This document shows positions 11,111-32,775 of a DNA stretch of 64,000 bases, in pieces. The translations under genes and the position numbers were made by a program. Position 1 is the stretch's first letter. Every line of letters starts with the position of its first letter. The notes under the pieces were generated by a model. It did no database searches. It had not been told where the DNA came from and saw only the letters and a list, made by a program, of their open reading frames with translations. Source of the DNA: Arenicola marina (taxonomy: Eukaryota > Annelida > Polychaeta > Arenicolidae); contig OZ025255.1 of the NCBI GenBank assembly GCA_964019135.1, forward strand, positions 20,313,708 through 20,377,707. Direction: 5' to 3'.

Positions 11111-11801
11111 TTTCTATAGAAGATCCCGGGATACTTTTTCCTATTGTAGCCGGTTATGATCAGGTATGTTTGCAGGCTTGTAGAAGTACTCTTTATGTGA
11201 AAGGATACATGAAAGTAATTCTCTCTTCCTAGATTTATTACGCAAATCATGGCATTAAATTTATCAGACATCATTACACCACGTAGGCAAATATTTGACA
11301 GAATTTCACTAAAAACAATTCTAAAGGTTTCTATCAATTTTGCTATGGAAATTCTAAACGTTTTCCCATAGAGTTTTCACAGAATTTCTATGGAGTTTCC
11401 ATAGTCTTCATCGAGTTTGAATAGTTTCCATACCGGCCTTACAACTGACGGAAGGCACAACAACGAGCTCTCGATTTAACACACTTAGGCTACGTTCTCT
11501 GCGACAAGCGAACGAGTGGTTTGACGAATTCTGGAATATATTGTGAAACAAGACTCCTGCAAGCGATATATGAAGGGATACCGACGGCACTATATAAGGT
11601 GGTATTCGAAGATTTAAAACTTCGCATTTAAGGAACTTTGGAAGCCTTGCCGGCATATTGACTTTGCCACCGGTTGCCTGCTGCGAAGTGAGAGTAGCGG
11701 CGGAGCCAATCCTTTGGACAATAACATTAACAGCATGAGATGTGAAGGTCTGCCCAACGGCCGTGCCCGTTCAGCCGAGACGGAGCTGATGTTGGACTCA
11801 C

Positions 11802-11861
11802 CCAGGGCGACCTTGAACTCTGTACCATGCACTGCCGCGACGTGCCCTTTCTTTGGAAACT
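11802..11861 (-). pseudogene. Exon-like 60-nt stretch, weakly FKBP-like
   Basis: On the minus strand a pyrimidine-rich acceptor (ttctttcaaatttccag) leads into a 60-nt open stretch that ends at a consensus donor (GG before GTGAGT, complement of 11796-11801). The translated core FPKKGHVAAVHGTEF resembles the start of FK506-binding-protein prolyl isomerases (FPKKG.., ..VVH.., ..GT.F), but about seven residues of the family pattern are absent between VH and GTEF. No neighbouring FKBP exon was found on this strand. It may be a captured or decayed exon fragment, or chance. The splice signals are seen in the sequence; the family assignment is inference. Confidence 0.22.
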
Positions 11862-11880
11862 CTGGAAATTTGAAAGAAAT

Positions 11881-12056
11881 GTTAGTGGTTTAAGCCACTT
11901 TTGTGCACATGAAGGCTCAATCGGGCCAAGGAACCTTCGGGACGATGAAGGATTAAAGGATGAAACATGCCCCAGATGATGTGCCCGAGCCCGGATTCGA
12001 ACCCAGGACCTATTGATCTGCGGCCGAGTGCGCTAATCACTACAATAGAGAGGCCC
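11881..12056 (-). mobile_element. tRNA-derived SINE, family A, copy 1
   Basis: On the minus strand a tRNA-like head includes an A-box-like stretch (gtgattagcgcactcgg) and a perfect B box (GGGTTCGAATCC). The body includes a block shared with copy 2 at 26362-26517 (ccacttttgtgcacatgaag on the + strand). The copy lies inside the inverted-repeat element at 11258-12372, so it inserted after, or was carried by, that element. Head and body are about 175 bp. Confidence 0.82.
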
Positions 12057-12064
12057 TCCGGAAT

Positions 12065-12240
12065 CTCTAGGGAAACTCTAAGGAAATTTTATAGAAACTC
12101 TATGGAAATTCTATGGAAACTATGAAAACTATGGAAACTCTATGGAAATTCTATGGAAACTCTATGGAACTCTATGGAAATTCTATGGAAACTGTATGGA
12201 ACTCTATGGAAATTCTATGGAAATTCTATGAAACCTCTAT
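12065..12240. repeat. 11-bp tandem repeat in the right arm of the inverted-repeat element
   Basis: About 15 units alternating ctatggaaatt and ctatggaaact, with some lost bases. Its complement is present more sparsely in the left arm (11345-11405), so the repeat is subterminal to the element. It shows local tandem expansion on one side only. Confidence 0.88.
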
Positions 12241-12561
12241 GGAAATTCTATAAAAATGCCATGGCAAGTCTATGGAAAAACGTTTAGAATTTTCAAAGAA
12301 AAATCGATAGAATTCTTTAGAATTTTTGTCATAGAATTTCTATATGATATTTTCGTACGGGTGATGTCAGTCGCGCGCGGTTCACTGTGACGTATTGCGC
12401 CATCTGGCGAATGGGAAAACGCTCTGGGGGGAGTCATTATTTTCACAAACTTGACTTACGTCAAAAGTCATAAGAAACTTATAAACAGCATTTGATATCT
12501 TCACAGTGATTTTAACCACAAAGAACCAAAGTTTTGAACATTTTAATGCCTTTCCTTCGAA

Positions 12562-13098
12562 ATGATATGGAAAAATCGCATGACTCTGTATGTCGACATT
12601 GTCGTCTGCTTGTCGTCTGGCTCTCTGGTTTGGTCAAAACATGAATATGTCTCAATTGAAAAGTATCTTGCCCAAGCGTGTAATTGTGCTGTCAATACCG
12701 GTATGCATGAACCCTGGTCCGCAGCCTGTGGTAATGATATGTTTGTCGCATGTAATTTGCTAAATATCAGCAGACATATATCTGGAACTTCTACAAAACG
12801 AAAACTACGTCACTCGAGCAAAATATAGATATGCTTGTTCTATCAGCAGATAACGCTAAAACGTGGAAATGTTCTATAATTTGATAATGACCTAGATGTT
12901 GTTGAATCCGCGGACGGTATGAAAAATATTCCAATGGAGAAAGTCGAGATTCATATTCGACGGCTGTTACACCAAGATACTGATGTCACGCTGTATGTAC
13001 TTTGGTCTGATGGCCTCCTTACAAAACAACGCTCGCGAAAAATATCTGTGTTCTCTGGTCACAGGGTGCTAAAGTTTAAAAATCTACTTTTAATTTAG
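12562..13098 (+). pseudogene. Coding-like remnant, unrecognised
   Basis: An 88-codon frame (12562-12828) and a 59-codon ATG frame (12919-13098) lie in the same phase, 90 bp apart. Between them that frame has stops at 12826 and about 12877, while another frame of the gap is open. Composition is unbiased and protein-like, with pieces such as HIRRLLHQDTDVTLYVLW and YVLWSDGLLTKQRSRK. No family is recognised with confidence. Upstream DNA (12397-12410) has a CTCF-like core. This could be a decayed host gene, two exons with a short intron, or chance. Confidence 0.25.
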
Positions 13099-13984
13099 AA
13101 GAAAAAATAACTGTTCATGGAAAGTGAGTTAATGGTTTTGTCCATACATGTACGTATTTTTATGTACCTATGGCTTAAAACGGAAAATAGTAGATTAAAG
13201 CGAGACAGCGAGGCAACAAAAAAACAAGAGCCGAAATCAGCCGGAGGCTGAGGCTTACTGACAGAAGCGATTTTGTTACAGACGATCAGGGGAATTCATT
13301 TGCTAAATTATAATCCTATTTGGTCTAAATAGGGCGTGCAGCGGTCAATGTATCTTAAAATAGCTCATACAAACGGGCATTTCATCCTACATTCGCACCT
13401 ACAAGCGGCAATAGTGAGGGAACCGAAAGTGCCTGGGGTTCATTTCCCCATTCTCTCCTCATTGGCGACCGAGCCAGGGGGGTCCCCTTTGTGCGGCGCC
13501 ATGGTTCCCAGGGTAAGGGCATTACGTCAATTGTAAACACAGGTATGTTCATATATAGTTTAGCCCTACTAAGTACCGTAACAATCGCGGTTCTAACTTG
13601 CTTTCCTGATTTTTGACGATTTTTGGTAAGTACTAAAAGTGAGAGGCTGGTGATTTTGAATTTTTGATATGCAATGGTGCATATGGCTTTCTATAGTGCC
13701 TAATTACCGCGGAGTAATGCTATATAGCCTCAGATAGTTCCGTTTTCATTGCCTAATTACCTAATGACGGGTTCGTTTAGAGCGCGGTTTGAAGCATTAA
13801 CACTTGCTACCACACGTCGAAGTATCGTCGTGAACATGTTTCGTTGGGGTTTGAGTCGATATAAAGATTGAGGCGGAAGCGTGTTGTGATGCGGTAGACC
13901 TTATGGAAGGCCGATATCAGGATATTGTGGGGAAAACTACATTTTGAAAGCTATACTTTTACGAATATTGTCAACGCCCGAAAC

Positions 13985-14150
13985 TGCGCGACCCGGCCTT
14001 TGGACATGAATCACATGCGACACGCCACCGTTAACGCTGTCTGGCTGGCTCAGTGGGTATAGCGTTGGACTTCGGATCCAAAGGTCACGCGTTCGATCCC
14101 GCCTGGGAGCATGCCATTTTTTGTTTTTTTTCGTTTTTCTGATCAAAATT
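13985..14150 (+). mobile_element. tRNA-derived SINE-like element with a T-rich tail
   Basis: A tRNA-like head contains a D-arm-like tggctcagtgggtatagcg. It has a perfect 5-bp anticodon stem (ttgga/tccaa) around a loop CTTCGGA, which would give anticodon TCG (Arg). A B-box-like gcgttcgatcccgcc follows. The T stem and acceptor stem do not pair properly, so this is not a functional tRNA. A T-rich tail (ttttttgttttttttcg) follows at 14115. I read it as a tRNA-Arg-related SINE or tRNA pseudogene. Confidence 0.65.
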
Positions 14151-14204
14151 GAAATCAAAACAATGATTCGGCTTCAGGGCGTCATTTTATTAAGCACTGT
14201 GGCT

Positions 14205-14355
14205 CTAGGTTAACATCTTTAACCAAAGGACAAATCCTGGTACTATTTGACGAAGGGATATGTGAAGTACGCGACAACACATTTGTCCCAGCATAAGAGC
14301 GAGCACGATGAACGGCTTTAAACATGGGAAGTCCCATAGAGAAATGCCGTCGTGG
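14205..14355 (+). repeat. Dispersed repeat, copy 1
   Basis: About 80% identical by eye to 16445-16580. Shared strings include aaatcctggta, gcgacaa.acat and the exact block catgggaagtcccatag, which itself contains the palindrome gggaagtccc-like core. No coding content. Element class is unknown. Confidence 0.7.
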
Positions 14356-14429
14356 TAGTAGGCCTTATGTATGTTATGTATGTTATGTATGTATATTATT
14401 TGCTTATTGTAGCCGCCTCACCGTATGGA

Positions 14430-15120
14430 CACTAGTGGATCTCAAAGAACAAATCTGGATTTCAGGGGTCAAATCTGGATCTCAGAGGTCAAATCTGGAT
14501 CTGAGGGGTCAAATTGGTGTATCAGGGGTCAATTAGTGCCTTCAGTTGACAATTTGGGTCAAATAGAGGTTTTAGCGGGCAAAATGGAGTTTTAGTGAGT
14601 AAATTTGGCTAAGTAGGCCATTACACATACAATTTGGCCCAAATAGAGCTTTTAAGGTATAATTTGAGGTAAATAGAGCTTTCGGCGGGCCAAATATAGC
14701 CTTCAGATGGCAATTCAGCATAGCTGGCGGCTTGGGAGAACCACTTATGCCCAATATGGCTTTCTGTTGACAAAATAGAGCTTTCTGTTGACGAAATAGA
14801 GCTTTCTGTGAACAAAATAGAGCTTTCTGTTGGCAAAATGGAGCTTTTGTTCGCAAAATAGAACTTTCGTTTGGCAATTTGGGCTAAATAGCAAGTATAA
14901 CAGGAAATTTGAGGTACACTGGGCATCTAAGGGGCAATTTGGGTTAAACAGCGCGTATAACGGGCAATTTATGCTAAATAGCGAATATACCCGGCCATTT
15001 GAGCTGAACAGCGCATATACGGGGCAATTTTGGATAAACAGCGCCTATACGGGGGACAATTTGGGCTAAACAGAGCGTATAACGGGACATTTGAGCCAAA
15101 TAGCGCATTCATCCGACAAC
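14430..15120. repeat. Degenerate ~30-bp tandem repeat
   Basis: Poorly conserved units around gggcaatttgggctaaa with spacer variants; early units use ggtcaaatctggatctgag, central ones acaaaatagagctttctgtt, and late ones cagcgcgtataacggg. Unit length wavers around 28-31 bp. The high divergence marks it as the oldest-looking array in the window. Confidence 0.8.
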
Positions 15121-16444
15121 GTGCGCACCGCAGGCTCTATTTTGAGCAATGTGCAATGCGCAATTAACAGATATTAACGGAATTACAGGTAAAACCGTCG
15201 ATTGTGCCTGTGACGTGACGATCACGTCATGTGACGCATCTTCCGGCCGCCAATTTAATGCCATATTAGAGTTTAAGTGAACATGAACATTTGTTCTCAA
15301 GAGCGATTGCTCGACTCATTATGAATGGCGCTACGAATTTTATTTTTATCTAATAATACGTCATCGTGACGAGACATGACGTCATTTGACGTTCGCAAAA
15401 ATGCTCAAGATGGCTTCTATGTCTTTAATATACCTACTTATCAACTCGGGTTATGACAGCTATTGCCAAAGTGGCTGAAAATAAAGCAAACCCAACATTT
15501 CTTAGGAGCACGTTAGCTATGACGTCATTTTTGACGCACACGTTTCGGTACCGCAAAAAAAATTACGCATCGCAGCAGTTGTCTCTTGATATAAGGTACA
15601 GCCTCAAATCAACCGGTAGTCGCTTCGAGGTATAATAGTCGAGTAATGGAGGTTATAAAATTATGACGTCATCACGTCATGGTGACGTCATGGCATGACG
15701 CACGGCAACGTCCAAACATCTAGACACAAACATGTGTGCCCTCAATCCCAAACGTTGATTAGAACGGCGGTAGGACTGTTAGTTCTTCAGACATAGCTTC
15801 ACCTAATTACCGAAAATTGCTATTCTTCATCATTGCGGATAAATGAAAAACGAGCAGACGAAGAAAGGACTCTGCAGCTAAGATGTAAAGGATAATAATG
15901 CTTTACTGCCAATAGCAATCTGGAGACATATCTTCCCTACCATTATACGCAACGATCGAAGGTCTAGCTAGTTTTTCCGATTTTTGACGAATTTTCTAAA
16001 TTAGAGGGAATCCGTATACCTTATCATTGGAAAAATGTCCGGTTGCCATGGAAACGAAACTGAGACACGCGTTTGCCGTCAGTCTACACTGGGACTCTTG
16101 TACTCGTCCACATCTCTCACCATGGTAAAGCAAAGTGAGATCGATCAAACGAAAGTATGTCAAATTGAATGAAATTATATTTTCCCCATAGGGTTCCATG
16201 TTAAACGTTTTCGACTCTATAACGAACAGTTAGTATGTTATGTCACCATGTTTACCGTTGGTGGCTCATCTCAGTTCGGTCCATCCACAACTGCAAGCAT
16301 TGAATGATAACTGGCATAGGTCGCTCGTGGGAGCCCTTGCCAGCGCTAAAAATCCCTATCTTTTACCATTGGCCAAATTTAAAAAAATTCCTCTGACGTC
16401 ATTTCTTATTCAAATACCATATGGTATCTATTGTTTCTACTAGG

Positions 16445-16580
16445 TACCATATTGAATCAAAGAAAAAATCCTGGTAGTGTTTGACGCAGGCACTTGTGAA
16501 ATATGCGACAAAACATATTTTCCCAGCTTGAGAGTTGGAGGGCTTTAACATGGGAAGTCCCATAGACAACTTCCCGCCGC
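16445..16580 (+). repeat. Dispersed repeat, copy 2
   Basis: Homologous to 14205-14355, sharing aaatcctggta, ttgacg.ag and the exact block catgggaagtcccatag. The flanks diverge. The similarity spans about 130 bp, with small insertions in both copies. Confidence 0.7.
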
Positions 16581-16993
16581 TCTGGAACCGGAAGTAAGAT
16601 TGGAACGTATTGTTTTTACAAGGCCTCGCGCCGCGTTTGACAATTTTTTGTATGTACCGAAAGTGACGTCATCGTGGCGTCACGTGACGCACTGGAGAGA
16701 CCTAAGATTCTACAGAGGTTATTTCTATTCATATTTCTATGACATGTCAGAACGTTATAGCGATAACTTGGTTTTAAATGTGTCTAAAAGCCACAAAACT
16801 GACAGAGGTGATTTAGTGTGTTTTGCGAAAAACCTATTATCTCATTTTGCTCGAAAATGAGTATGACGCGTCAAAAAGTGAACAGTATACAAAAGATGCC
16901 TCTTGATGGGCAGCACATTTTGAAACTTACCTATCTCTCTATCTCTAAAATTAACGGAGATACGTTGTTAACTTTTTTTATAAAAAATCGCTG

Positions 16994-17012
16994 TGACCTT
17001 GACCTTTGACCT
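16994..17012. promoter_or_regulatory. Three TGACCT half-sites (nuclear-receptor-like)
   Basis: TGACCT occurs at 16994, 17000 and 17007. Read on the minus strand this is a perfect DR1 (AGGTCA A AGGTCA) followed immediately by a third half-site. DR1 is the classical target spacing for HNF4- and RXR-type receptors. There is no associated gene, and similar strings are common in invertebrate repeats, so function is doubtful. Confidence 0.3.
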
Positions 17013-17168
17013 ACATATGCCATTAACGAACTTGACCGAGCCATGTCACCAATCTACCTTTTGGTGAAGACCGATGACCGTAGCTATCGAATTACGACCT
17101 GTATCGCTCTGACAAGAAAAGCTAGCTGACAAACAAACAACAAATTTACAAGCCAAACTGAGTAGTAT

Positions 17169-17198
17169 ACTGACAGAAGTCTTTGGACTTCTGTCAGT
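17169..17198. other. Perfect 13-bp stem hairpin beside a minisatellite
   Basis: Left arm actgacagaagtc (17169-17181) pairs without mismatch with 17186-17198 across a 4-base loop (tttg). It lies about 90 bp before the 32-bp array begins, and its arm shares the ctgacag string with that array's core (gtgacaggg). Confidence 0.75.
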
Positions 17199-17289
17199 AC
17201 CAAACAGGGCAGAAAATTAACAAGACCGCAGCAGAAGTCACTGACAGCACTTGAATTTCTTTCTTGTGGCAAACCACAGCACGCCATAC

Positions 17290-19530
17290 TAGTGACAGGG
17301 CGACCCACGGCCGACTACAGCCAGTGACAGGGCGACCCACGGCCGACTACAACCAGTGACAGGGCGACCCACGGCCTACTACAGCCAGTGACAGGGCGAC
17401 CCACGGCCGACTACAGCCAGTGACAGGGCGACCCACAGCCGACTACAACCAGTGACAGGGCGACCCACGGCCGACTGCAGTGACAGGGCGCCCGACGGCC
17501 GACTAAAGCCAGTGACAGGGCGACCCACGGCCGACTACAGCCAGTGACAGGGCGACCCACGACTGACTACAGCCAGTGACAGGGCGACCCACGGCCGACT
17601 ACGGTGACAGGGCGACCCACGGCCGACTATAACCAGTGTCAGGGCGACCCACAGCCGACTACAGTGACAGGGCGACCCACGGCCGACTACAGCCAGTGAC
17701 AGGGCGACCCACAGCCGACTACAGCCAGTGACAGGGCGACCCACAGCCGACTACAACCAGTGACAGGGCGACCCACGGCCGACTGCAGTGACAGGGCGCC
17801 CAACGGCCGACTAAAGCCAGTGACAGGGCGACCCACGGCCGACTACAGCCAGTGACAGGGGGACCCACGACCGACTACAGCCAGTGACAGGGCGACCCAC
17901 GGCCGACTACAGTGACAGGGCGACCCACGGCCGACTACAGCCAGTGACAGGGCGACCCACAGCCGACTACAGCCAGTGACAGGGCGATCCACGGCCGACT
18001 ACAGCCAGTGACAGGGCGACCCACGGCCGACTACAGCCAGTGACAGGGCGACCCACGGCCGACTACAGCCAGTGACAGGGCGACCCACAGCCGACTACAG
18101 CCAGTGACAGGGCGATCCACGGCCGACTACAGCCAGTGACAGGGCGACCCACGGCCGACTACAGCCAGTGACAGGGCGACCCACGGCCGACTACAACCAG
18201 TGACAGGGCGACCCACGGCCGACTGCAGTGACAGGGCGACCCACGACCAACTACAGCCAGTGACAGGGCGACCCACGGCCGACTACAACCAGTGACAGGG
18301 CGACCCACGGCCGACTACAGTGACAGGGCGACCCACGGCCGACTACAGCCAGTGACAGGGCGACCCACAGCCGACTACAGCCAGTGACAGGGCGATCCAC
18401 GGCCGACTACAGCCAGCGACAGGGCGACTCACAGCCGACTACAGCCAGTGACAGGGCGACCCACGGCCGACTACAGCCAGTGACAGGGCGACCCACAGCC
18501 GACTACAGCCAGTGACAGGGCGATCCACGGCCGACTACAGCCAGTGACAGGGCGACCCACGGCCGACTACAGCCAGTGACAGGGCGACCCACGGCCGACT
18601 ACAACCAGTGACAGGGCGACCCACGGCCGACTGCAGTGACAGGGCGACCCACGACCGACTACAGCCAGTGACAGGGCGACCCCCGGCCGACTACAGCCAG
18701 TGACAGGGCGACCTACGGCCGACTACAGTGACAGGGCGACCCACGGCCGACTACAGTGACAGGGCGACCCACGGCCGACTACAACCAGTGACAGGGCGAC
18801 CCACGACCGACTACAACCCTGTGACAGGACGACCCACGACCGACTACAGCCAGTGACTGGGCGAGCCACGGTCGACTACAGTGACAAGGTGACTCACGGC
18901 CGACTACAGCCAGTGACAGGGCGACCCACGGCCGACTACAGTGACAGAGCAACCCACGACCGACTACAGTGGCAATGCGACCCACGGCCGACTACATTGA
19001 CAGGGCGACCCACGGCCGACTACAGCCAGTGACAGGGCGACCCAAGGCCGACTACAGTGACAGGGCGACCCACGGCCGACTACAGTGACAGGGCGACCCA
19101 CGGCCGACTACAGTGACAGAGCAACCCACGACCGACTACAGTGGCAATGCGACCCACGGCCGACTACATTGACAGGGCGACCCACGGGTCGACTACAACC
19201 AGTGACAGGGCGACCCAAGGCCGACTACAGTGACAGGGCGACCCACGGCCGACTACAACCAGTGACAGGGCGACCCAAGGCCGACTACAGTGACAGGGCG
19301 ACCCACGGCCGACTACAGTGACAGGGCGACCCACGGCCGACTACAGTGACAGGGCGACCCACGGCCGACTACAACCAGTGACAGGGCGACCAACGGCCGA
19401 CTACAGCCAGTGACAGGGCAACCCACGGCCGATTACAGCCCGTGACAGGGCGATCCACGGCCGACTACAACCAGTGACAGGGCGACCCACAGCCGACTAC
19501 AGTGACAGGGCGACCCACGGCCAGTGACAC
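17290..19530. repeat. 32/28-bp minisatellite with higher-order repeats
   Basis: About 72 units with core gtgacagggcgacccacggc. The 32-bp form carries an extra ccag that is missing in the 28-bp form. Variant units recur at long intervals. A gggcgccc variant followed by ctaaagcc is at 17487 and again 308 bp later, and the gactgcagtgacagggcgac junction at 18221 recurs 408 bp later. Blocks of about 10-13 units have therefore been duplicated as wholes. Confidence 0.96.
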
Positions 19531-19865
19531 CTACCGGACGCACATTGACGATGAGGATTGTCGCCCACGCAGCTGTGGGCACACCGTGGTGGGCCGCGCA
19601 CTGATTGGCCGGGCTTTCACCGCCTCACACAAATAAGGAAGCGCATGCTTCTACATTTAGTCGTGGTTACAAAAGGGCAAATCTTCGTATCGATAATGAC
19701 CGTCAGTTTTAGGTCCGATATTCGGGACAACACCATAATACTCTGGCATAGGCGTCGCGAGAGAGTGGGAAGCGCACTGAGCAGGGTGATCCTAGCCACT
19801 TTCCACCCATTACATACATGTTACGTTACAACAAGATTCGCTTGAAGCACACTGATTATATAGAA
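19531..19865. other. Short unique spacer between two minisatellites
   Basis: About 335 bp separates the 32/28-bp and 30-bp arrays. An ORF of 95 codons (19558-19845) has no recognisable features. No RNA gene or regulatory site is evident. Confidence 0.5.
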
Positions 19866-20191
19866 GAAGCTACAACACCCACTGACTAGATACAAGAAGC
19901 TTCAACACTCATTGACTACATACAAGTAGCTTCAACACCCACTGACTACATACAAGAAGCTACAACACGCATTGATTACATACCAGAAGCTACAACACCT
20001 ACTGACTACATACAAGAAGCTACAACTCCCACTGACTACATACAAGAAGTTACAACACCCACTGACTACATACAAGAAGCTACAACACCCACTGGCTACA
20101 TACGAGAAACTACAACACCCACTGACTATATACAAGAAGCTACAACACCCACTGACTATATACGAGAAGCTACAACACCCAGTGACTACAC
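19866..20191. repeat. 30-bp minisatellite
   Basis: About eleven units of 30 bp with core actacatacaagaagctac, well conserved in the centre. It ends about 1 kb upstream of the receptor exon, against a C-run (20200-20218). The 30-bp unit keeps frames open on both strands. Confidence 0.94.
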
Positions 20192-21241
20192 ATTAACCCT
20201 CCACCCCCCCCCCCCCCCGCCAGCATCCCCCGCCAACGGTGGGAGAGACCGTGGGCCGCGACTTTCCCGCCAACTCCAGAGCGGATATCGTCTGCCCGGC
20301 CTTTCCAGCCTTCCCCGCGCCCGCCGCCCCGCCATGGTTCGCTCGGGAGCGGACAAACTTGCCATCTCCAGGCTTGACTCATCCGCAGGCGGGCAGAGCG
20401 AGCGAGCGAGCGAGCGGGGGTAGTTAGGTGGGAGGAGAGCACACCCCAGACTGCAAGCAAGGAGCCAACCGACAAGCAATGCTCGCTCTCTGTCTCTCTC
20501 CCTCCCTCTCGAGCGAGTTGTCTCTCTGTGCCACACCGCACACCTAGACGGCTCGGACAGGGAACCAATCAGACTGAGCCATCACGGCCACACATCTCAG
20601 CCCGAGAGTCTATGTGATACTTCAATCTATATCACGCTTCACGTTCACGATTCGTCTGTGTTTACCGTACATCGCAGCCGCAGGAATTCATCGATTGCAG
20701 AATAATTGCAGTGTTTTTGTGACTATTTGTCCCCCCCACCAATATGCACGTTACTTCTCAATGAATATGTGAACTATCGGTTGTTGAATTGCAAAGTTTT
20801 TGCGGAAAACTAATTCACTTCGCCATGGCATCTGTACAATGGGACGTATGTCATTTCACGGTGTGATATGACACGGTCGAGATTGGACAACGACCTGGGA
20901 TACACAGCTTGCGACTCACACTGATATTGGAAGCGATTGCTAAATCATGAACTAAATCATGGAACTATCCATTGGATGTTGTAGAACCCACCAAAACAAT
21001 CATGGTTTATTGACGGTCAATGTGAATGTATACAGTTAATTATTTTGGAGTTTAGTTTATTCTTGAAAATATCTTAATATCGTCTGTATACCCTTGTGCA
21101 TACACGCCCGAAGTTAATTTCTGTCTTGCTTAATATTAATTTCTCGGACTTTTCCCCGGGAAGTTTCCTCTGTGGTCCGGAGCTACCCGGATTTCGACGC
21201 AGATTTCGTTTCGGGATAGCTCAGCCCACGTACGAGCGACC
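20192..21241 (+). promoter_or_regulatory. Upstream region of the receptor gene (presumed 5' UTR and promoter)
   Basis: The first part (20200-20560) is GC- and CpG-rich, with a long C-run, an agcg tandem (20398-20416) and a ct-rich tract. The second part is AT-richer. No convincing TATA box or start site can be fixed. Open frames on the minus strand are shadows of the GC-rich segment. Assignment as promoter and 5' UTR rests only on position before the receptor ATG, and additional 5' exons are possible. Confidence 0.35.
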
Positions 21242-21901
21242 ATGGCCGGACTAAGGTTCGGCTCCCAGTTCCCTCCCGGAGAGGGTGACCAGACCCATTG
21301 GAGGGACGCCAACGCCACCTGGGGCGTTGCCATGGACACGAGCTTCCAGCCGGTGAACCCCGGCGACAAGGCTTTCCGACCGTACGCCGACGGCGGTTGG
21401 CTCCTGAACGACACACACGAGGACTCGAACCTGGACCACGCGACCATGGATCCGGGGATGGGGATGACGATGGCGCCGCCGCCGGTCTTCAACGATATAT
21501 CCATGATCAAGACGGTCGTGCTGAGCATGATGTTCCTGATCTCGCTCATCGGGAACACGGCCACGCTGGCCCAGATGTACAAGATGCGACGCCGGAAATC
21601 GACCATCAACACGCTCATCCTCCACCTGGCCATCGCTGATCTCATCGTCACCTTCTTCTGTAACGTCACCGACGCCGTGTGGGCCTCGACCATCCAGTGG
21701 TACGCCGGCAACTACATGTGCAAAATGGTCAAGTTCATCCAGGTCTTCGGATTATACCTCTCCACCTACATCATCGTCATCATCAGTCTGGACCGCTGCT
21801 ACGCCATCCTGGATCCCATGAGGCGCATCAAGGCCTCGCGCCGCGTCCGGATCATGGTGGCCACCGCCTGGATCTGCAGTGCCTTGTTCAGTCTGCCCCA
21901 G
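21242..21901 (+). CDS. First coding exon of a GnRH/corazonin/AKH-type receptor (GPCR, partial)
   Basis: Encodes 220 residues of a rhodopsin-class peptide receptor of the plasma membrane. The start has a full Kozak context (ACCATGG). The N-terminus of about 87 residues has N-glycosylation sites at N24 and N56. TM1 (about 88-112) has the GN pair (104-105). TM2 has LAIADL with D133. QWYAG (152-156) precedes the TM3 cysteine C160. The TM3 end is DRC (184-186), followed by DP in loop 2. TM4 ends SLPQ. QWYAG and the ISLDR block match human GNRHR closely. The exon stops in phase 0 at CAG before GTAGGT, the same site as human GNRHR exon 1 (Q174). TM5-TM7 are not visible in the window. Whether the ligand is a GnRH-, corazonin- or AKH-like peptide cannot be decided from this half. 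Coupling to Gq is family knowledge. Confidence 0.93.
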
Positions 21902-23555
21902 GTAGGTGTTTGCTTCAGTCTGCCCCAGATATGTGTTTGCTTCAGTCTACCCCAGATATGTGTCTCAATCAGTCTGCCCTAGGTATTTGTCTGAATCAAT
22001 CTGCCCTAGGTATTTGTCTCAATCAGTCTGCCCTAGGTATTTGTCTGAATCAATCTGCCCTAGGTATTTGTCTGGATCAGTCTGCCCAAGGTATGTGTCT
22101 GGATCAGTCTGCCCCAGGTATGTGTCTGGATCAGCTTGCCCTAGGTATGTGTCTGAATCAGCGTGCCCTAAGTATGTCTGGATCAGTCTGCCCCAGATAT
22201 GTGTCTGGATCACTCTGCCCCAGGTATGTCTGGATCAGTCTGCCCCATGTATGTGTCTGGATCAGTCTGCCCCAGGTATGTCTGGATCAGTCTGCCCCAG
22301 GTGTGTGTCTGGATCAGTCTGCCCAAGGTATGTGTCTGAATCAGCCTGCCCCATGTGTGTGTCTGGATCAGTCTGCCCAAGGTATGTGTCTGAATCAGCT
22401 TGCCCTAGGTATGTCTGGATCAGTCTGCCCCAGATATGTGTCTGGATCAGTCTGCCCCAGGTATGTCTGGAATAGACTGCCCGATGTATGTGTCTAGATC
22501 AGTCTGCCCAACGTATGTCTGGATGAGTCTGCCCCAGGTATGTGTCTGGATCAGTCTGCCCAAGGTATGTGTCTGAATCAGCTTGCCCTAGGTATGTGTC
22601 TGGATCAGTCTGCCCCAGATATGTGTCTGAATCAGCTTGCCCTAGGTATGTGTCTGAATTAGCCTGCCCTAGGTATGTCTGGATCAGTCTGCCCCAGATA
22701 TGTCTGGATCAGTCTGTCCCATGTATGTGTCTGGATCAGTCTGCCCCAGGTATGTCTGGATCAGTCTGCCCCAGGTATGTGTCTGAATCAGCCTGCCCTA
22801 GGTATGTCTGGTTCAGGAGGCCCCAGGTATGTGTCTGAATCAGCCTGCCCCAGGTATGTGTCTGAATCGGCCTGCCCTAGGTATGTCTGGTTCAGGAGGC
22901 CCCAGGTATGTGTCTGAATCAGCCTGCCCCAGGTATGTGTCTGAATCGGCCTGCCCTATGTATGTCTGGATCATTCTGCCCCAGATATGTGTCTGGATCT
23001 GTCTGCTCCAGGTATGTCTGGATCAGTCTGCCCCAGGTGTGTGTCTGAATCAGTCTGCCCCAGGTATTTGTATGAATCGTTCTGCCCAAGGTAAGTGTCT
23101 GGATCAGCCTGTCCTAGGTATGTATCTGGATCAGCCTGCCCTAGGTATGTATCTGGATCAGCCTGCCCCAGGTATGTGTCTGAATCAGCCTGCCCCAAGT
23201 ATGTGCCTGGATCAGTCTGCCCCAGGCATGTGTCTGAATCAGCCTGCCCCAGGTATGTGCCTGGATCCGTCTGCCCCAGGTGTGTGTCTGAATCAGCCTG
23301 CCCCAGGTATGTGTCTGAATCAGCCTGCCCCAGGTATGTGTCTGAATCAGTCTAGCCCAGGTATTTGTCTGAATCAGTCTGCCCCAGGTACGTGTCTGAA
23401 TCAGTCTAGCCCAGGTATATTTCTGAATCAGTCTGCCCCAGGTATCTGTCTGGATCAGTCTGCTCCAGGTATGTGTCTGAATCAGCCTGCCTGAGGTATG
23501 TGTCTGGATCAGCCTGCCCAATGTATGTGTCTGGTTCAGGCTGCCTCATGCACAA
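21887..23555 (+). repeat. 25/27-bp minisatellite grown from the receptor's 5' splice site
   Basis: About 62 units. The exon's last 15 bases (ttcagtctgccccag) are the end of the first unit, and the unit then continues gtatgtgtctgaatcagtct in a 27-bp or 25-bp form. Each intact unit therefore repeats CAG followed by GTATGT, a good donor sequence. Variants have ctag or caag before GT, or ATATGT in place of GTATGT. Reading on from the exon frame gives three further SLPQ repeats before a stop at about 21980. Long frames elsewhere in the array are repeat by-products. Confidence 0.96.
21902..21907 (+). promoter_or_regulatory. 5' splice donor of receptor exon 1
   Basis: CAG followed by GTAGGT, directly after codon 220 (phase 0). 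It is chosen because receptor homology stops here and human GNRHR has an intron at the equivalent residue. Dozens of similar donors follow every 25-27 bp in the adjoining array. Confidence 0.85.
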
Positions 23556-26500
23556 ATGTTCGTGCATCTAACTAAGTTAAATCTAAGTTAAATCGCGTTA
23601 TCACCTCATCCATATACAGCGTTTAATGTATTTTCTCGTACAAGTATAGTCATGTGCTTTTAACCGGCTCCAGAATGACAACATATATATGTATATAGAT
23701 GGATCCGGAATGTATTGGTGCTCGCCGCGGGCCCAGCGCTGAACCACCAGCCAACACCACATGAATCATGACTTATTTGACGCATCTTAAGGGCCATGCA
23801 ATCGCCAGGGTTTTGTTTTCAGCCTGTCGTGAGAGGAGCTTGTGTTGTCGCGCATGTAATATATATATATATATATATATATATGTATACTACATATATA
23901 TTTATATGAGAAAATCGTACCCCATATGCCAAATTTTACGCCGCCCGGCATGCCATACCAGCTTGGTATGTGCGTCAGATATTATCACATGTAGACACAT
24001 TTTATCGTACTAGTTTATGACACCTGCAGAGAAACAAAGATCCATTCATTATGTGACAGTTATCTTTCCTTACAGGATATTACTTTTAACTGGGCCAATT
24101 TGGTCGTGTATAAAAGTGGGAAGGTGTGATCAAGGCTGTCGTAGTTATGAGGCTCACGGGTCAATGTACCTGTAATAGCTGACGGTCATATTTCTGCATA
24201 TATCAGCAGCGGTGTTATTGGCTGGTGGTAGCAAGAGTGCACCAGCATTACCATGTCTGGCATTACATAGTCGACTTTCTATTTTATTGAATGACATTAA
24301 TTTTTACTTTTTCCATCCATGAGGGATGCTTATTATTTGTTTCATTTCGTAGCCGAATTCCGTAAGTGGTGCTATGTCGTGAAAGATTATCACCATTGAT
24401 AAGCAAGATAACATCTTTAGATGAGAGGGAATACCTTTTCCGATATCCGCGATTGGCATCCAGGAATTCCTGGAGATTCGCGATTAACTGCTGGCAATTT
24501 TTGGGGATCGTTATCCGTCATACAATTCCTGGTTCAACGCGAAGACCATGTCCTTATTTACCGCGATCCGTTATAGCGGTCTGTGAATTCCTCGATATTC
24601 GCGATATATCTTTTAAGATATTATTTTCTCGCGCTAGGTCTTGAACAGTCATCATCAGTCCCCTTATTCTTGGGGATTCGCGATTCCCCCCCACCCCCCC
24701 TTTACACCAACATGAAATCAGAACAATACATCTCGTGACGTCACTGGTTCCAATGCCACGGTGCTGACATCACTGAACATCACTTAAAACTTAAAACATA
24801 GAATATTAATCTGCTGGGAATAATAAAAACGTTGGCCAGGCATTGTCCCAACACTTTTGGTCGCGGCGGCCCCGACGCCCATCAAGGCAGCGGCAAAGCG
24901 TTTGTCACAGTATTTAAAAGCCCAATGTTCTTACAGTTTAATTTCATTTATTTTTGCATAACATTTTGTCGGTAAACAGAAACAGGTCCTCGTAGGTCAC
25001 GACGTGGCGATGGTTCCCGTGAAACCCTACTTTTCGAAATGGCTCCTATCTTTTTCTAATACAGTGGTCGTCCACCTGTGTTTTGATTTTTTTTTCTTAC
25101 CGGCTCTTGCGCACCTCTTTTCCGGCTGCTTCAATGACAATTTCTTCGAAAACGTCGCCCACCATTTGAATGTGTACCAGCTTAGGGTTTGACGGTTTGT
25201 CTGGGTATATGTAGCATGTATTGTGGTACACGCAGATAGGGCAAGTGGCGATGCAGCGGCGCGTCACTGCGCAGTCAGCGTGGTGCCCGCGCCGTCGACT
25301 GGTTCTCGGATAGGAGGCGCAGTAAAGATAACAAAGAGATACCTGAAGGTGGAGAGTCGAGTGTTGTTACAGCAGGTGTAGGTTGGCTATCACTAGGCAG
25401 AGAAGCAACCCGGTGTTAGTTCGAAGATCTGGAGTAGCCAGGACCAGCCGGATATATATATACGGCGCGTTGGTCGGTGCCGTGCTGTGCGCCAAGTCTC
25501 TCGTCCTATCAACCTTAAGCACTCCGGTATCCTTCAGAGTTTTAACTTGACTGGCAAGCAGGCAGATTTAAGTTGTAGAAATAGGGAAGGGTTCGGGTCT
25601 GATAACGGGTTCCAACGACCCACGTGAGTAAAAGAGGTGGGAGATGATAGTCCTGGTGTATTGAGGTCAGTTGTAATAACATGTGTAGCCAGAGGACGCT
25701 TGTTATATGTTATTATGTCCGTTATGTCTGTTATTATGTCCGTTATGTCTGTTATTTACGTTGACGTTTACGCGTTCAAAATAACATCGCGACGCCGATG
25801 CGATAGAGGGACAATCATATGGTTTCTTCAGAATGACCCGAATGACCTTGACAACATGTGAACCTGTACGGTGGAAAATGTTATTTTCCCTTATTAACGC
25901 CAGAAGGGTCGTCCTTATATAGTTCACGGGGGAGGGGGGCGTTGGGTGGGTCGGGTTTACCCATTCGGTGAGGCACGAGCCGGGGTCTCTTGCCCTTTAC
26001 CTGGCAACCCAATGAACACTGTACCGACGATGTTTTGCTGCTGTATGTTTACATGTTCCACATCGGGCACTAAATGCTGTTTTGACAGGGCAACACATCT
26101 GCGGAAGATGCGAGCTGCGCAAGGTGTTTAGCGAGGGCAAGAGACGACTACTGCCGCCTATCCGTTGTGGGATGTTCGGCGGTGCCCAAAGGCGCTAACT
26201 AGAATCAAAGCAAGCTGTTAGCAATCATGTCAAAACGGATTTTTGTCAAGCACATGTCTCTTGGCTCTGACATTCGACATACTTGCGTCTTCTTGTGTTG
26301 GCTTCGCGACGGTGCGAAGTATAATTTAGTTTTATTTGGAACTGTCAAGTTAGATGCAAATGTTGGTGCTTTTGGCCACTTTTGTGCACATGAAGGCTAA
26401 AACAACGGACGAAGAAACCTACCGAAACTTGCCCCATGTGCATGGTGTCATGGTACGAACCCATGACCTGTTGACTTGCAGTTTAGCACGCTTACCAACT

Positions 26501-28261
26501 CAGCCACAGAAACTCCCGGGAGGGGGTCGGGGCCCTGCTGTTGAATGATACGCTGTGGCGACCTTTGTTCGCCGACTAAATTATATATACCTCCAGGGCT
26601 GTTGAAGATTATGCTGCCATGGTGTCAGTGCGGTGGTCCGCTTGGGCGGTGAGGATGCCATGCCCTGATATGACAATGGGTTTCAGATGCATTGTTAACT
26701 TCCGGTTTTGTTATTGGCTTACATTTATCGATATGACCTCATAAGCAGCGTCATATGTTACTCACAATGTAACTGCTTAGTATGTATAATATGTACACTG
26801 CCTGACACCTGGCTCGCTTCGCTCCCGGCCATATGCATCTTCCGGGTGAGCAATACGTGAGATAATAGGTTGAAACAAAGGAAGAGCGACCGCCAGCCAT
26901 ATTAGTTATATTACTGGGGTGTCGGCAAGTCAGTGGCAAGGCCCGGAGCGCGAACACACGTAACTCATATCACCGAGCCGACGCGTTGGCTATTGGGCTA
27001 CACATTGATATCCCTGCAGTCCGGGCACTAGCGTTTCTGCTTGTACCGCTGACACCCCGAAGCCGATATGCAGATATGCCACAGTGCCACATGCCTCGGT
27101 GCAGATCTTCAATGGGGTTGCTCTCTAATTCTAACTTCCTCGCTCGGCTCTCCTTTAGCCTTCCTCGACATTTCTTCACCCTTTCTTATTCATCGCCCCG
27201 TCAACCGCCCGTTGTCCTATCCCTGCCGCCCAATCCCCCCACCCCCCGCCCTCGCCTCTCTCCTCGGCGCCTCCTCAACACCGGCCCGCACTCCACCGGA
27301 GCTTTCCTCCTCCAGTGGACTCCTTAAACACACAATATTTCCAGCCATGGGCCCGTACGAAGTGCGCAACCTCCCCCTCCCTTTCCCCCTCCCATTCCCA
27401 TGACCGCCCCACCTTCCCACAAACCCACACCCGCCATCTAACCGGCGCCGTGGTCCTCCCCGCGTTAACACAATGCTCTTATTGTTGCTGGCAAATGCCC
27501 CCGAGACCACGTGACCGCCAACCGGAAGTGATGACAAAGGCCGGCGGCGGGCTGGACTGTTGAGGATTCCCTTCCTCCTCGCTGTGCGTTCCTTCAAGGA
27601 AGTGTGTCCCCCGCCCTGCCCCATCACCACCTCCCCCCCCCCCCACCCCGTTTTGTCCAACGCTGACCACAGCTTGATCACAGACTGTTCTTGGTCAGCC
27701 ACCTACTGCCCGCTGTTACCAATCCATTATTGTCTACCTAGCGTATTTCTGTCTCCCAGCGGTTACGCTGAAGGGCATTCTTCCTTTTTGGTCACTGTCA
27801 ACTGAACTCTCCAGCACCGCCATTTTGCGGAAATGCTTAAATTCGATCTTTTTTTCCTTGCCGATGGCGTGATCCTTGTCCCCCTCCGGGTTGATCTCTG
27901 AAGTTTTTGTACGATGGGTGAGGCACTGCAGGCTACGGATCACACATTGGGCCATAAGTTCCTGAGGCATTTAGATATATATAGTCTGTGTATTCAGCCT
28001 GTAATGACACAGTGTCCCAGTCATAATTGCACCCCACGCTGTTGGTGGATGGTTCACAATTCTAGTTTCTTTCGCCCAGTAGGTCTGTGTGAGAAGTTCA
28101 TGACTGCAGGGAGAGCCAGACTTCGACACCCACTACGCACACAGAGCAAAACCGATTAGTTGAGCTCTATAGACATTCCATACCGGATTCCGTGCTTTAC
28201 AAAACCCGGACAATTTGCTTACGAAAAGCTTATGCCACTTCGATTGGGTTGTCTGCGGACG
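23556..28261. other. Presumed receptor intron 1: unique DNA with minor repeats
   Basis: No receptor exon recognised. Contents include a TA microsatellite (23859-23885) and a degenerate ttcctggagattcgcgat-type repeat (24440-24690). A TGACGTCA lies at 24736-24743. An 18-bp ttatgtccgttatgtctg repeat (25703-25755) gives about three units, and a family A SINE is at 26362-26517. A C-rich region with runs (27220-27650) also occurs. Short open frames show nothing recognisable. Confidence 0.55.
26362..26517 (-). mobile_element. tRNA-derived SINE, family A, copy 2
   Basis: Minus-strand tRNA-like head with A-box-like gctgagttggtaagcgtgc and B-box-like gggttcgtacc. The body contains the ccacttttgtgcacatgaag block (+ strand, from 26377) shared exactly with copy 1 at 11881-12056. 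The two copies differ widely in the stretch between block and head, so both are old. Confidence 0.8.
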
Positions 28262-28445
28262 CAGCATTCGGTCTGAGGCAGGGTATGGAGCAGGGTCTGA
28301 GGCAGGGTCTGAGGTAGTGTTTGAGGCAGGGTCTGAGGCACGGTGTGAGGCAGGGTGTGAGGCAGGGTCTGAGGCAAGGTCTGAGGCAGGGTCTGAGGCA
28401 AGGTCTGAAGCAGGGTCTGAGGTGGGGTCAAAATCTGCTTTTGAG
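28262..28445. repeat. 12-bp minisatellite
   Basis: About 15 units of gtctgaggcagg, with variants gtgtgaggcagg and gtctgaggcaag. The 12-bp period keeps frames open on both strands, giving QTLP- or RQGL-type repeats that are not genes. Confidence 0.93.
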
Positions 28446-29591
28446 GCATGGATGGAGCCCCTTTGTATATAATGGGGACGACCCAGGTGGGGGACATGGG
28501 GTCGAGGGTCTGGCCAGCCGTCCGCGGCCCAAGGAGAGGGATGAGCCGCAGTGTGGCGGCGGACAGAGCGGCCCAGAGGCCCGGCCTCTGTCGAGTCTGT
28601 CGGGCACGGACAGCGGCGGAAAATCGAATTACTGTGGAAGAAGCTGTTGCTTGATGGAGGCTGTCCTTGGATGCAGCCCGCTACTTACTGAACCTTGACA
28701 CGACCATTCATGAGCAGGGCGCTGTCGCCGACATATTGAGCCATAGAGGAAGTGTACATGTGGCATTATGGGTAATAGGCGGAACCGGAAGATGCAGGGT
28801 TGGGTGCGTTAGCGATATCAAAACCATGAATGAAAAAAAAGAAAACGAATAAGGAGGCGAACTGCGCATGCGCGAAGATTAACCCCCTGGTGAAAAATCG
28901 GTCAACAAGGTTATGTTGTTTACTAAGTTGCGCTAGTTCATGACAGCCAAGGTCATGGCAACATCAATCATGGCAATAACAATTAACAATTTATAATCTG
29001 CAAATTGTAGAAGGGCATGTTGTTATATGCATGTTTATTCTGTGGGGTATCTGGTGTGGAAAAGTGCGGTTTTCTCATATACTGCGTCATCAAATTAGTG
29101 GGTTTTTTTCCCTTTTAACATGATAAAGGATGTGATATACAATACATGTCTTCAAGTTTTAAGTTAAGTTCCTTAAGAGTTAAACCTACATCGAGATCAC
29201 TCTATGTCTAGTCGATCCACAAGAAGATATTAAAAACTTACAGGTGAAACATTGTCCAAACCAAAGCGAGCCTGTCCAAAAAGAACGACTGGTATCATAT
29301 TCTACATGTTACTTATTACCGTCGTTATTGCGATTGAAACCTTCCTTTAGAGAGACCGCCCTCGAGTAAACAAAACACAGAAGGCAATTGAGTCAACACT
29401 CGAGGCCACCGCGGATCTCCAACTGAACCATCATGCCTTCAGAACGAGGCCTGTGGCGCCACAGCGCTTGCATCTCGCGAGACCTCCCCGCAGTTTCAGA
29501 TTCCGAAATGAATTCTTCTCTGACGAGAAAACTTGTAGAGTATTGGTGTTATGTAGACCTGTTCTGGCGTTGTTGGAGTTCCAAAGATACC
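28446..29591. other. Unique stretch with one CpG-rich open segment
   Basis: The first 200 bp are CpG-rich and open (see 28448-28654). The remainder is AT-rich, with no recognised gene. A palindromic aactgcgcatgcgcgaag lies at 28859-28876, an NRF1-like core (TGCGCATGCGC). No RNA gene or mobile element seen. Confidence 0.5.
28448..28654 (+). CDS. Uncertain 68-codon ORF in CpG-rich DNA
   Basis: An ATG frame with a basic, unbiased C-terminal half (RPGLCRVCRARTAAENR). An overlapping frame (28321-28698) is open too, because the upstream repeat contributes open sequence. CpG density is higher than in the surroundings. No family recognised. It could be an exon fragment, or simply open GC-rich DNA. 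Confidence 0.13.
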   Translation: MDGAPLYIMGTTQVGDMGSRVWPAVRGPRRGMSRSVAADRAAQRPGLCRVCRARTAAENRITVEEAVA

Positions 29592-29775
29592 AAAACCAGA
29601 GTGAGGAGCGATATCCTCGTCTGATGGAGATAGCGAGACAAGGACCGCTTGTTAAAACCAGAGTGAGGAGCGATATCCTCGTCTGATGGAGATAGCGAGA
29701 CAAGGACCGCTTGTTAAAACCAGAGTGAGGAGCGATATCCTCGTCTGATGGAGATAGCGAGACAAGAACCGCCTG
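29592..29775. repeat. Three-copy 62-bp tandem repeat
   Basis: Three nearly identical 62-bp copies start at 29592, 29654 and 29716, with core gagcgatatcctcgtctgat. The first two are identical by eye, and the last carries small changes (aagaaccgcctg). The near identity suggests a recent triplication. Confidence 0.96.
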
Positions 29776-31439
29776 TTGGAAATTCCGCTTAAACATCGTG
29801 TGCGGATATGTCTTCGACGCACTGGATCTGGGCAGTGAAGTTGACGCACATAAACAGGAGCGAGCAAAACTGCAACCACTCCAAGCATGAGACCGGGGGG
29901 ACTTCTCTCGACTGGTTGGAGAACCCGCTCAAGCGATAACCAAAACCTGTTGTGGGGAACCGATTGGAAAAATATAACAATAACACTTGAAGGCAATAAT
30001 ATATACGAGGGCGTTAAGTCGCCCTGGGGTATGATTTGCGGAAGAGAGTGGTGTGTGTGTGTGTGTGTCGGGGGGGGGGGGGGGGGAAGAGGGGTGTCAG
30101 TGTCCTGTCGTCATTCCCTACACAGTGCGGTGCACGGTGTAGGGAATGCTGTTATGGATAAATAGCGATGTGGATAAACTCTTTAAAACGTAAATATATT
30201 TATGAAACTAAATAAAAAATACTGAACGGCGCTGGTGATAATAAGTTAGTACACTCTTTGAAACGTACATATATTAATAGAACTAAATCCAAACTACTGA
30301 ACGGCGCTGACAATGATGCTATGACTGGTGGTGATATTGCTGTGATGGGATGAAGATGTGCGGACCCCGCCCTGTTACATGGATACACTAGAGTAGGTAG
30401 AGAGCACGCGTTATTCAGAGCCAGAATACAGACCGGTCTTCTGTTCGAATCATGCAGCCCTAGCAGAGCGCTATCTTATCCAGGTGACCCCGGGGACGAC
30501 AATAGAAGTTATACAGCGATTACTAGCACATAGCGACCTTGATCCAATCTGTTTATATGATATCGTAAATTTATGTTTACAAGACAGTCCTTGTAAATAC
30601 TTTTGCCTTCCTCTACGGCTTCCAATACATTTACATTTGGTTCATTTATCATTCATGTAAAGAACCCTGTAGGTTAATTAACCCTCAGTGTGTCGTGGGT
30701 GTTGATGGGTGGGAAGGAAGGGGGTGACGGTTCATTGGAGTATATTCGTTATCAGATTAAATCGTAAAAAGCCTAAAGTTTATGCCAAAAAGTTTAAAGT
30801 TACATGTGGAGCTGGCCGTTGCAACGGCTGTACCAAAATAAACATAAACAGGAAATGTTACCTTTGACCACAAGCAGTGTCAACGGCCACCGCCAAAGAA
30901 AATATGGCGCTCCTGACGCTTCTATTGTCTCATATAATTTAGCGCTTGGGCCCCCTGTCGGTGGCACCGGTAAACGACTTGCTTACACACGTTTATGACG
31001 TTTCAAATCAGCCCAAGTTTTTAATTTTTGTGGCGGACAATTCATGAATTTGAAATATTTTGCTCATTGGCAGATAATTGGTGAGCGATATGGTAGGTGT
31101 TTATTGTCTGTTATGAACCTTAAGGCCTTAGGTTTGTGTTCTTATACGCAAATTTGGCATTCAAAAACAGCGAAACAACTCCACATGCAACTTTAATTCG
31201 AATGTTTCGTCCCAGGGTTGCAATGGTTACAACTGAGCCCGTCTTAGGTGGCAACGTGCTCGCTGCACATTTATGCTGGAGCAGGTCACGTAATAGGGCA
31301 ATGTCTGGGTCGTAAAGAGTGATTATAATGCACAGTGGAAGCTTTAAGCTGACGTTATCTTGTGCTACTCGTGGTAACGACGTCGGCTAGGAGAAGGAGG
31401 GGGTGGCAGAAGGTTAGAAAGGGTCATGGGGGCAAAGAA
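29776..31439. other. Unique stretch with low-complexity tracts
   Basis: No gene recognised. It holds a GT run and a G run of about 17 (30051-30086), then a perfect inverted repeat (arms 30113-30123 and 30137-30147, attccctacac). A weak minus-strand tRNA-like string lies at 30420-30490 (gattcgaaca). The last 45 bp (31395-31439) are complementary to DNA near 36700-36745. Confidence 0.5.
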
Positions 31440-32775
31440 ACATGGGAAGAGATAGAGAGGGAGTAAAAGGGAAAGATGGGGACAGACTGAGGGAGGGAAA
31501 GATGGGGACAGACTGAGGGAGGGGAAGGTGGGGACAGACTGAGGGAGGGAAAGATGGGGACAGACGAATGGAGGGAAAGATGGGGACAGACTGAGGGAGG
31601 GAAAGATGGGGACAGACTGAGGGAGGGAAAGATGGGGACAGACGAATGGAGGGAAAGATGGGGACAGACTGAGGAAGGGAAAGATGGGGACAGACTGAGG
31701 GAGGGAAAGATGGGGACAGACTGAGGGAGGGAAAGATGGGGACAGACTGAGAGAGGGAAAGATGGGAACAGACTGAGGGAGGTAAAGATGGGGACAGACT
31801 GAGGGAGGGAAAGATGGGGACAGACTAAGGAAGGGAAAGATGGGGACAGACTGAGAGAGGGAAAGATGGGGACAGACGAATGGAGGGAAAGATGGGGACA
31901 GACTGAGAGAGGGATAGATGGGGACAGACTGAGGGAGGGAAAGATGGGGACAGACTGAGGGAGGAAAAGATGGGGACAGACTGAGGGAGGGACAGATGGG
32001 AACAGACTGAGAGAGGGAAAGATAGGGACAGCATGAGAGAGGGAAAGATGGGGACAGACTGAGGGAGGGAAAGATGGGGACAGACTGAGGGAGGGAAAGA
32101 TGGGGACAGACTGAGAGAGGGATAGATGGGGACAACAGGAGGGAGGGAAAGATGGGGACAGACTGAGGGAGGGAAAGATGGGGACAGACTGAGAGAGGGA
32201 AAGATGGGGACAGACTGAGGGAGAGCAAGATGGGGACAGACTAAGGGAGGGAAAGATGGGAACAGACTGAGAGAGGGAAAGATAGGGACAGCCTGAGAGA
32301 GGGAAAGATGGGGACAGACTGAGAGAGGGAAAGATGGGGACAGACTGAGGCAGGGAAAGATGGGGACAGACTGAGGGAGGGAAAGATGGGGACAGACTGA
32401 GGGAGGGAAAGATGGGGACAGACTGAGGGAGGGAAAGATGGGGACAGACTGAGGGAGGGAAAGATTGGGACAGACTGAGGGAGGGAAAGATGGGGACAGT
32501 CTGAGGGGGGAAAGATGGGGACAGACGAATAGAGGGAAAGATGGGGACAGACTGACGGAGGGTAAGATGGGGACAGACGAATAGAGGGAAAGATGGGGAC
32601 AGACTGAGGGAGGGTAAGATGGGGACAGACGAATAGAGGGAAAGATGGGGACAGACTGAGGGAGGGTAAGATGGGGACAGACGAATAGAGGGAAAGATGG
32701 GGACAGACGAATAGAGGGAAAGATGGGGACAGACTGAGGAAGGGAAAGATGGGGACAGACGAATGGAGCGGGGCA
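31440..32775. repeat. 27-bp purine-rich minisatellite
   Basis: About 49 units with core gggaaagatggggacagact, ending gagggag or gaatggag. The + strand is almost pure purine apart from two or three pyrimidine positions per unit. The 27-bp period keeps minus-strand frames open for up to 450 codons (SLSLSPSFPPSVCPH pattern); these are not genes. Right-end units mostly carry the gaatagag variant. Confidence 0.96.

Follow-up and report, generated by a model that had tools for sequence, protein, structure and literature searches.

A probable mirage-type minisatellite of 62 units at the end of a receptor exon in Arenicola marina

Introduction

Mirages are minisatellite-like tandem duplications of exon-intron boundaries that have been described in amphioxus, where they are found in Adh3, in the globin genes BflGb6 and BflGb9, in PGBD5 and in TnC (PMC3087553, PMC3902484), the first account being the work on Adh (Nucl. 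Acids Res. 2002, as cited in PMC3087553). Their units measure 150-160 bp in BflGb6, which has 3-6 of them, 157 bp in BflGb9, 60 and 108 bp in PGBD5 and 10-72 bp in Adh3 (PMC3087553, PMC3902484). The subject here is an array from the annelid Arenicola marina (Polychaeta, Arenicolidae), which starts within the first coding exon of a receptor gene, at its very end. It lies in a window of 64,000 nucleotides, which is the whole stretch of DNA that was analysed (assembly GCA_964019135.1, contig OZ025255.1, positions 20,313,708 to 20,377,707 of the forward strand; coordinates below count from the first letter of the window). The array has probably grown from the exon-intron junction in the manner of a mirage, with its copies inside the intron, and is probably spliced out by way of the original donor at 21901/21902.

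The array is a further, many-unit example of a phenomenon that is already known. It is a minisatellite-like repeat, its end unit spans the boundary at the predicted donor, GT stands at the donor place in 54 of the 62 units and AG/GT in 45. Like the amphioxus mirages, as far as they are described, it is made up of tandemly repeated units bridging an exon-intron boundary, AG/GT signals being kept in many of them though not in all, and has an authentic boundary in or beside the end unit, although the donor is in this case a predicted one. Unlike them, it is found in a receptor gene and has 62 units of 25-27 bp.

How far do such copies disturb the splicing of their gene? The Adh3 data, together with the authors' own reverse-transcription PCR on the globins, suggest that regular splicing is undisturbed by mirages (PMC3087553). 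For TnC the available account reports no aberrant mRNA, and for PGBD5, the repeats of which are annotated as an exon in a gene model, undisturbed splicing is only suggested (PMC3902484). A related process is the creation of introns through tandem duplication of AG/GT proto-splice sites (Rogers; Gao and Lynch; cited in PMC3087553). The present array shares with that process the duplication of a sequence bearing splice signals and differs from it in that an existing, apparently old intron, within the region encoding the fourth transmembrane segment (TM4), has gained the array.

The human gene IFI6 (6-16) also contains a minisatellite, the short unit of which reportedly begins at an exon boundary. 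This minisatellite has multiple splice donors (Turri et al. 1995, cited in PMC4526556), and two of its downstream units are described as serving as donors, giving rise to three mRNAs (PMC4526556). The array described here is unlike it in that units 2 and 3 are without GT and unit 4 brings a stop. An abalone TSSK1-like gene has a 27-bp intronic minisatellite with 62 repeats, a coincidence of figures; neither this repeat, in the available text of PMC12783039, nor the repeats of earthworm metallothionein, in that of PMC6905558, are described as exon-boundary repeats. No mirage in a receptor of the gonadotropin-releasing hormone (GnRH) type was found in the literature searched, which carries little weight since most journals lay outside the search. 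Finally, a 31-base pattern of the unit had no exact match in viral contigs, where, at the protein level, three stretches matched a pattern, none of them encoding a relative.

Organisation of the array

The main elements of the locus are as follows, the slash here and throughout separating the exon or exon-like part from the donor.

21242-21901, + strand: first coding exon, encoding the N-terminus and then TM1 to the end of TM4 (first ATG; 7tm_1; PDB relatives)
21887-21901, + strand: end of the exon, TTCAGTCTGCCCCAG (F-S-L-P-Q), which forms the exonic portion of unit 1 (14/14 match to the unit; Pro-Gln kept in five aligned sequences of three receptor types)
21902-21907, + strand: predicted true 5' splice site GTAGGT after CAG (U1 duplex -13.7 kcal/mol)
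21888-23548, + strand: entire minisatellite, with 62 complete units (27 bp in 49, 25 bp in 13) and a partial one of 13 bp (Tandem Repeats Finder, TRF; wrap-around alignment)
22791-22958, + strand: exact 89-bp repeat inside the array, in overlapping copies from 22791 and 22870, spaced 79 bp apart

TRF places a 27-bp minisatellite at 21888-23545, with 62.4 copies and 83% matches, and wrap-around alignment of the array extends it to the partial unit that ends at 23548. Units are numbered from the one starting at 21888, with a 9-bp overhang row of the alignment table left out. Their consensus is TCAGTCTGCCCCAG/GTATGTGTCTGGA, and together they make up 2.6% of the window. The first unit spans the exon end and the donor, reading TTCAGTCTGCCCCAG/GTAGGT. 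Over its final 14 nt the exon agrees with the unit at all 14 positions, a score that none of 5000 shuffles of the tail reaches (mean best 7.2). The flanks agree with the unit at few positions, 8 of 27 directly upstream of the array and 4 of 14 directly after it. A preliminary description of this DNA had spoken of a minisatellite of about 60 copies and 1.7 kb whose first unit is formed by the exon end and its donor; the array is real, and the exact match, with a start that falls within the last 15 bases of the exon, bears out its first unit.

The divergence of the units, their two length classes of 25 and 27 bp and the 89-bp exact repeat at a distance of 79 point to turnover of the array. The repeat of 79-bp period at 22791-22958 is a three-unit block with the TCAGGAGG variant. 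It probably marks the youngest duplication in the array, and in the one haplotype seen the 89-bp identity suggests the trace of a recent multi-unit duplication.

The receptor exon and the direction of copying

The exon comprises 220 codons from the ATG at 21242, in a frame that is open from 21140, and its encoded N-terminus has two N-glycosylation-type sites, NAT and NDT. Against Pfam 7tm_1 the exon scores E=1.3e-21 along profile positions 1-120 of 260, and its best relatives in the PDB are oxytocin, vasopressin V1a and GnRH receptors, with E values from 3e-27 to 3e-22 (among the best 60 of the 531 sequences with E no higher than 1e-5). In the five best alignments (two to oxytocin receptor, one to V1a and two to GnRH receptor) the query ends on a Pro-Gln that is common to all five. 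Because of the 7tm_1 match and of these alignments ending on Pro-Gln, the exon is judged from its sequence to be the TM1-TM4 part of a rhodopsin-type receptor of the superfamily that unites the GnRH, adipokinetic hormone (AKH) and corazonin receptors with those for vasopressin and oxytocin.

In human GNRHR an exon boundary follows codon 174. In pig GnRHR2 the first exon covers TM1-3 and a portion of TM4 (PMC5732264), and the position of the intron at 21901, which fits the end of the pig exon in TM4, appears old. Intron-exon boundaries shared among receptors are also mentioned in PMC4232701, and five receptors of the GnRH/corazonin type are described as tested in Branchiostoma floridae (PMC10321317). 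Since the intron position looks old, the array would have grown in an existing intron, and no newly gained intron is implied.

Which came first, the exon end or the array? Most likely the array was copied from the exon end, as judged from the tail, which encodes a Pro-Gln kept in distant receptors and the last 14 nt of which match the unit exactly. The same conserved residues and exact match make it highly improbable that the array came first and lent its sequence to the exon end, or that an array edge came to lie at the exon end by chance. What such a coincidence has in its favour is the richness of the window in minisatellites: 29 arrays, with 58 edges, cover 34.5% of its bases (merged by hand from 74 TRF rows, most rows scoring under 100 being left out), such that the chance of some array edge falling within one given 15-bp exon end is about 1.4%, which renders the coincidence unlikely, though not astronomically so. 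A single case does not by itself prove the seeding of arrays by splice sites, which the published cases make plausible. The other arrays include those at 1-3720, 17291-19522, 31468-32760, 40136-41616 and 49152-52021, and none was found touching an exon, only one exon being recognisable in the window.

With growth out of the exon end, the starting event would have been an ancestral duplication in which the final ~14-15 nt of the receptor exon were copied along with the first ~12-13 nt of the intron that follows. Replication slippage and unequal exchange have then probably expanded this pair into some 62 head-to-tail copies, with the copies lying inside the intron.

Donor variants and reading frame

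Behind the first unit the array falls into parts that differ in the state of the donor.

21915-21968, + strand: units 2 and 3, exon tail kept and donor lost, CAG/ATATGT (wrap-around alignment)
21969-22076, + strand: units 4-7, weakened donors TAG/GTATTT (U1 duplex -5.7 kcal/mol)
21980-21982, + strand: in-frame TAG ending the exon-like part of unit 4, retained by every transcript spliced from the donor at 21983 or from one further on
22077-23535, + strand: units 8-62, mostly GT donors of moderate strength; best copy AAG/GTAAGT, in unit 46 at 23091

CAG/GTATGT, which each intact unit had been said to contain, is present in only 17 of the 62 units; NAG/GTATGT is found in 31 and CAG/GT in 26, and GTAGGT, the form of the true donor, occurs in a single one. 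Left unspliced at 21902, the exon frame runs into the TAG at 21980-21982, after TM4, close to where a stop had been placed before. The donor of unit 4, at 21983, sits directly behind this TAG and is the first later GT donor in phase with the units, and an in-frame stop lies ahead of all 53 such donors. Between 21902 and the unit 4 donor there are nine off-phase GTs, three of them in frame, which pair weakly with U1 (-5.1 to -1.2 kcal/mol). The copies next to the true donor hence offer no suitable in-frame donor, as units 2 and 3 are without GT, unit 4 brings the TAG and the off-phase GTs are weak. The preliminary description had read the repeat as an SLPQ-containing peptide, correctly, and had predicted that use of the second or third donor would add 9-residue repeats. 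These isoforms are without a fitting donor, AT standing where GT would be needed in units 2 and 3, and with unit 4 comes the stop.

Strength of the true donor and its copies

Two measures of donor strength were applied: the energy of pairing with the 5' end of U1, for which a sequence was assumed, and a base-frequency score built on assumed values. By U1 pairing the true donor, CAG/GTAGGT, is matched by none of the 53 other units with GT, the next best being unit 46 at -12.5 kcal/mol, with CAG/GTATGTGT at -10.2 kcal/mol. None of the 4465 GT sites on the + strand outside 21801-23600 equals it either, and no other GT on the + strand of the window pairs at -13 kcal/mol or lower. At -10 kcal/mol or better there are 39 + strand GT sites in the window, 13 of which are inside the array. 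The proposal that a splice site has been amplified is supported by this share of strong sites and by the repetition of exon end and donor. By base frequencies none of the 4473 GT sites outside the array reaches the true donor, and six come within 1 bit of it.

Among the unit-phase donors the true donor ranks first by U1 pairing, and by base frequencies one of 61 copies stands above it. Of the dozens of competing donors that had been envisaged, the steps of 25 or 27 bp and the presence of near-equal copies from unit 8 onwards stand, and the notion of dozens of equals does not, given that none of the 53 matches the true donor by U1. The preliminary description holds in part overall, both in what it observed (the array, its start at the exon end and the frame stop, and not a uniform CAG/GTATGT or usable second and third donors) and in its interpretation (the amplified splice site, and not the 9-residue isoforms or the equal competitors).

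On the most likely account the array is transcribed and then removed together with the intron. Splicing would take place at the original donor, which has the best U1 pairing and is the sole unit-phase GT donor that leaves the frame open. A transcript spliced at one of the copies would retain the TAG of unit 4, and would probably be destroyed or else specify a receptor cut off after TM4.

There are points that weigh against this account. Unit 46 exceeds the true donor by base-frequency score (1/61 copies), 23 of the 61 copies lie within 1 bit of it and 36 within 2 bits, the first within 1 bit being unit 8. The dominance of the first donor is therefore not guaranteed. Mirage copies could act as cryptic splice sites according to the authors of PMC3087553. 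In addition, scans of the window for TM5-TM7 motifs and with Pfam on the + strand recognised no exon 2 downstream. As for unit 46, at 23091, it stands above the gene's own donor by base frequencies and below it by U1 pairing.

The near-equal scores also bear on a functional role for the copies. The array could be a multi-donor minisatellite like that of human IFI6, with copies acting as alternative donors and with stop-containing messages, in a share that depends on array length, that tune the level of the receptor by way of RNA decay. The retention of GT in 54 of 62 units, the copies that score near or, in one instance, above the true donor on assumed base frequencies, the stop ahead of all 53 later donors and the reported use of two downstream units in IFI6 (PMC4526556) are all consistent with such tuning. 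It is nevertheless unlikely, in that the six nearest copies form the weakest donor stretch of that length in the array, no copy equals the true donor in U1 pairing, and the Adh3, globin and TnC mirages are said to give no aberrant mRNA (PMC3087553, PMC3902484).

Possible insulation of the true donor

The weakness of the first copies raises the question of whether selection has shaped the array to be harmless, with the true donor kept or made uniquely strong, the nearest copies disarmed and a stop set before the first usable copy, by which slipped transcripts would go to decay. This appears rather unlikely, albeit with some evidence in its favour. Units 2-4, 2-7 and 2-8 are each weaker than any other run of as many units in the array (rank 1 of 59, 56 and 55, with units lacking GT scored as 0). 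Chance would give the first two distinct donor runs with an estimated probability of 0.02 and the absence of a near-equal donor before unit 8 with one of 0.05, both on assumed base frequencies and for copies that are not independent of one another. Counted per unit, the donor columns of units 2-7 show 1.67 differences from the consensus, compared with 0.80 for units 8-56 and 1.0 for the final six. The non-donor columns follow with 2.0, 1.53 and 1.83, respectively, which weighs against insulation, and the weak start of the array is in part a general edge effect. Special conservation or decay of the donor columns was rejected as well, the nine columns having a variability of 0.106, compared with 0.091 in the others, and taking rank 7 among 27 circular windows, with no signal either way. 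The lack of a special pattern in the donor columns over the whole array weighs against insulation, and the support for it is modest.

The surrounding sequence

Because no exon 2 was recognised downstream in the window, the intron would be longer than 40 kb or the exon may be orphaned. The scan for TM5, TM6 and TM7 motifs in six frames gave 17 motif hits, none of which was judged to be TM6 or TM7, and the sole one in the receptor exon is the N-terminal FRPY; a TM5 pattern had no match in the window. Pfam found no 7tm domain in three frames of the + strand at 23551-62957 and 63161-63999, a search that had no positive control and could miss a lone TM5 exon. The ~40 kb downstream of the exon (23549-62957, + strand) are without a recognisable coding domain, as would be the case for a very long intron or an orphan exon.

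That the exon is an orphan or pseudogenic fragment beside a repeat, with no splicing there, is distinctly unlikely. The failure to find a TM5-TM7 exon in 40 kb agrees with it, as does the lack of any other Pfam domain above cut-off in the scanned parts, bar one repeat artefact. It is at odds with an intact frame of 220 codons, a full N-terminus and a strong Pfam match that runs up to the conserved Pro-Gln, and with a GC content of 0.88 at third codon positions; moreover, a lone TM5 exon could escape the scans used.

The artefact, near 40.05-40.27 kb, is a match to Peptidase_C13 that scores 26.9 bits (E=4.4e-06; cut-off 22.8) with no single stretch passing. It corresponds to frames with stops of the 28-bp array at 40136-41616, and was for that reason rejected as a second array at an exon. 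Matches to DUF4653 (13.9 bits, cut-off 27) and SelP_C (13.3 bits, cut-off 28.8) fell below their cut-offs. As to other genes, there was no Pfam match above cut-off on the minus strand at 23551-33492 and 33301-43202 or on the plus strand at 3721-13622 and 13501-21202. Nothing in the window matched Rfam at gathering score, nor did ARAGORN (bacterial code) find a tRNA. Exactly 200 consecutive N at 62960-63159 are probably an assembly gap.

Implications

Natural arrays holding tens of copies of a 5' splice site test how the spliceosome chooses a donor among near-equals. In the receptor gene of A. marina mis-splicing would be easy to detect, because the nearby copies are weak and each of the 53 later unit-phase GT copies brings a stop. 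Were the true donor indeed insulated by selection, the array would be a natural record of how a gene survives competition from dozens of 5' splice sites. What the array adds to a phenomenon known in amphioxus since the work on Adh is a further example, of many units and in a receptor gene.
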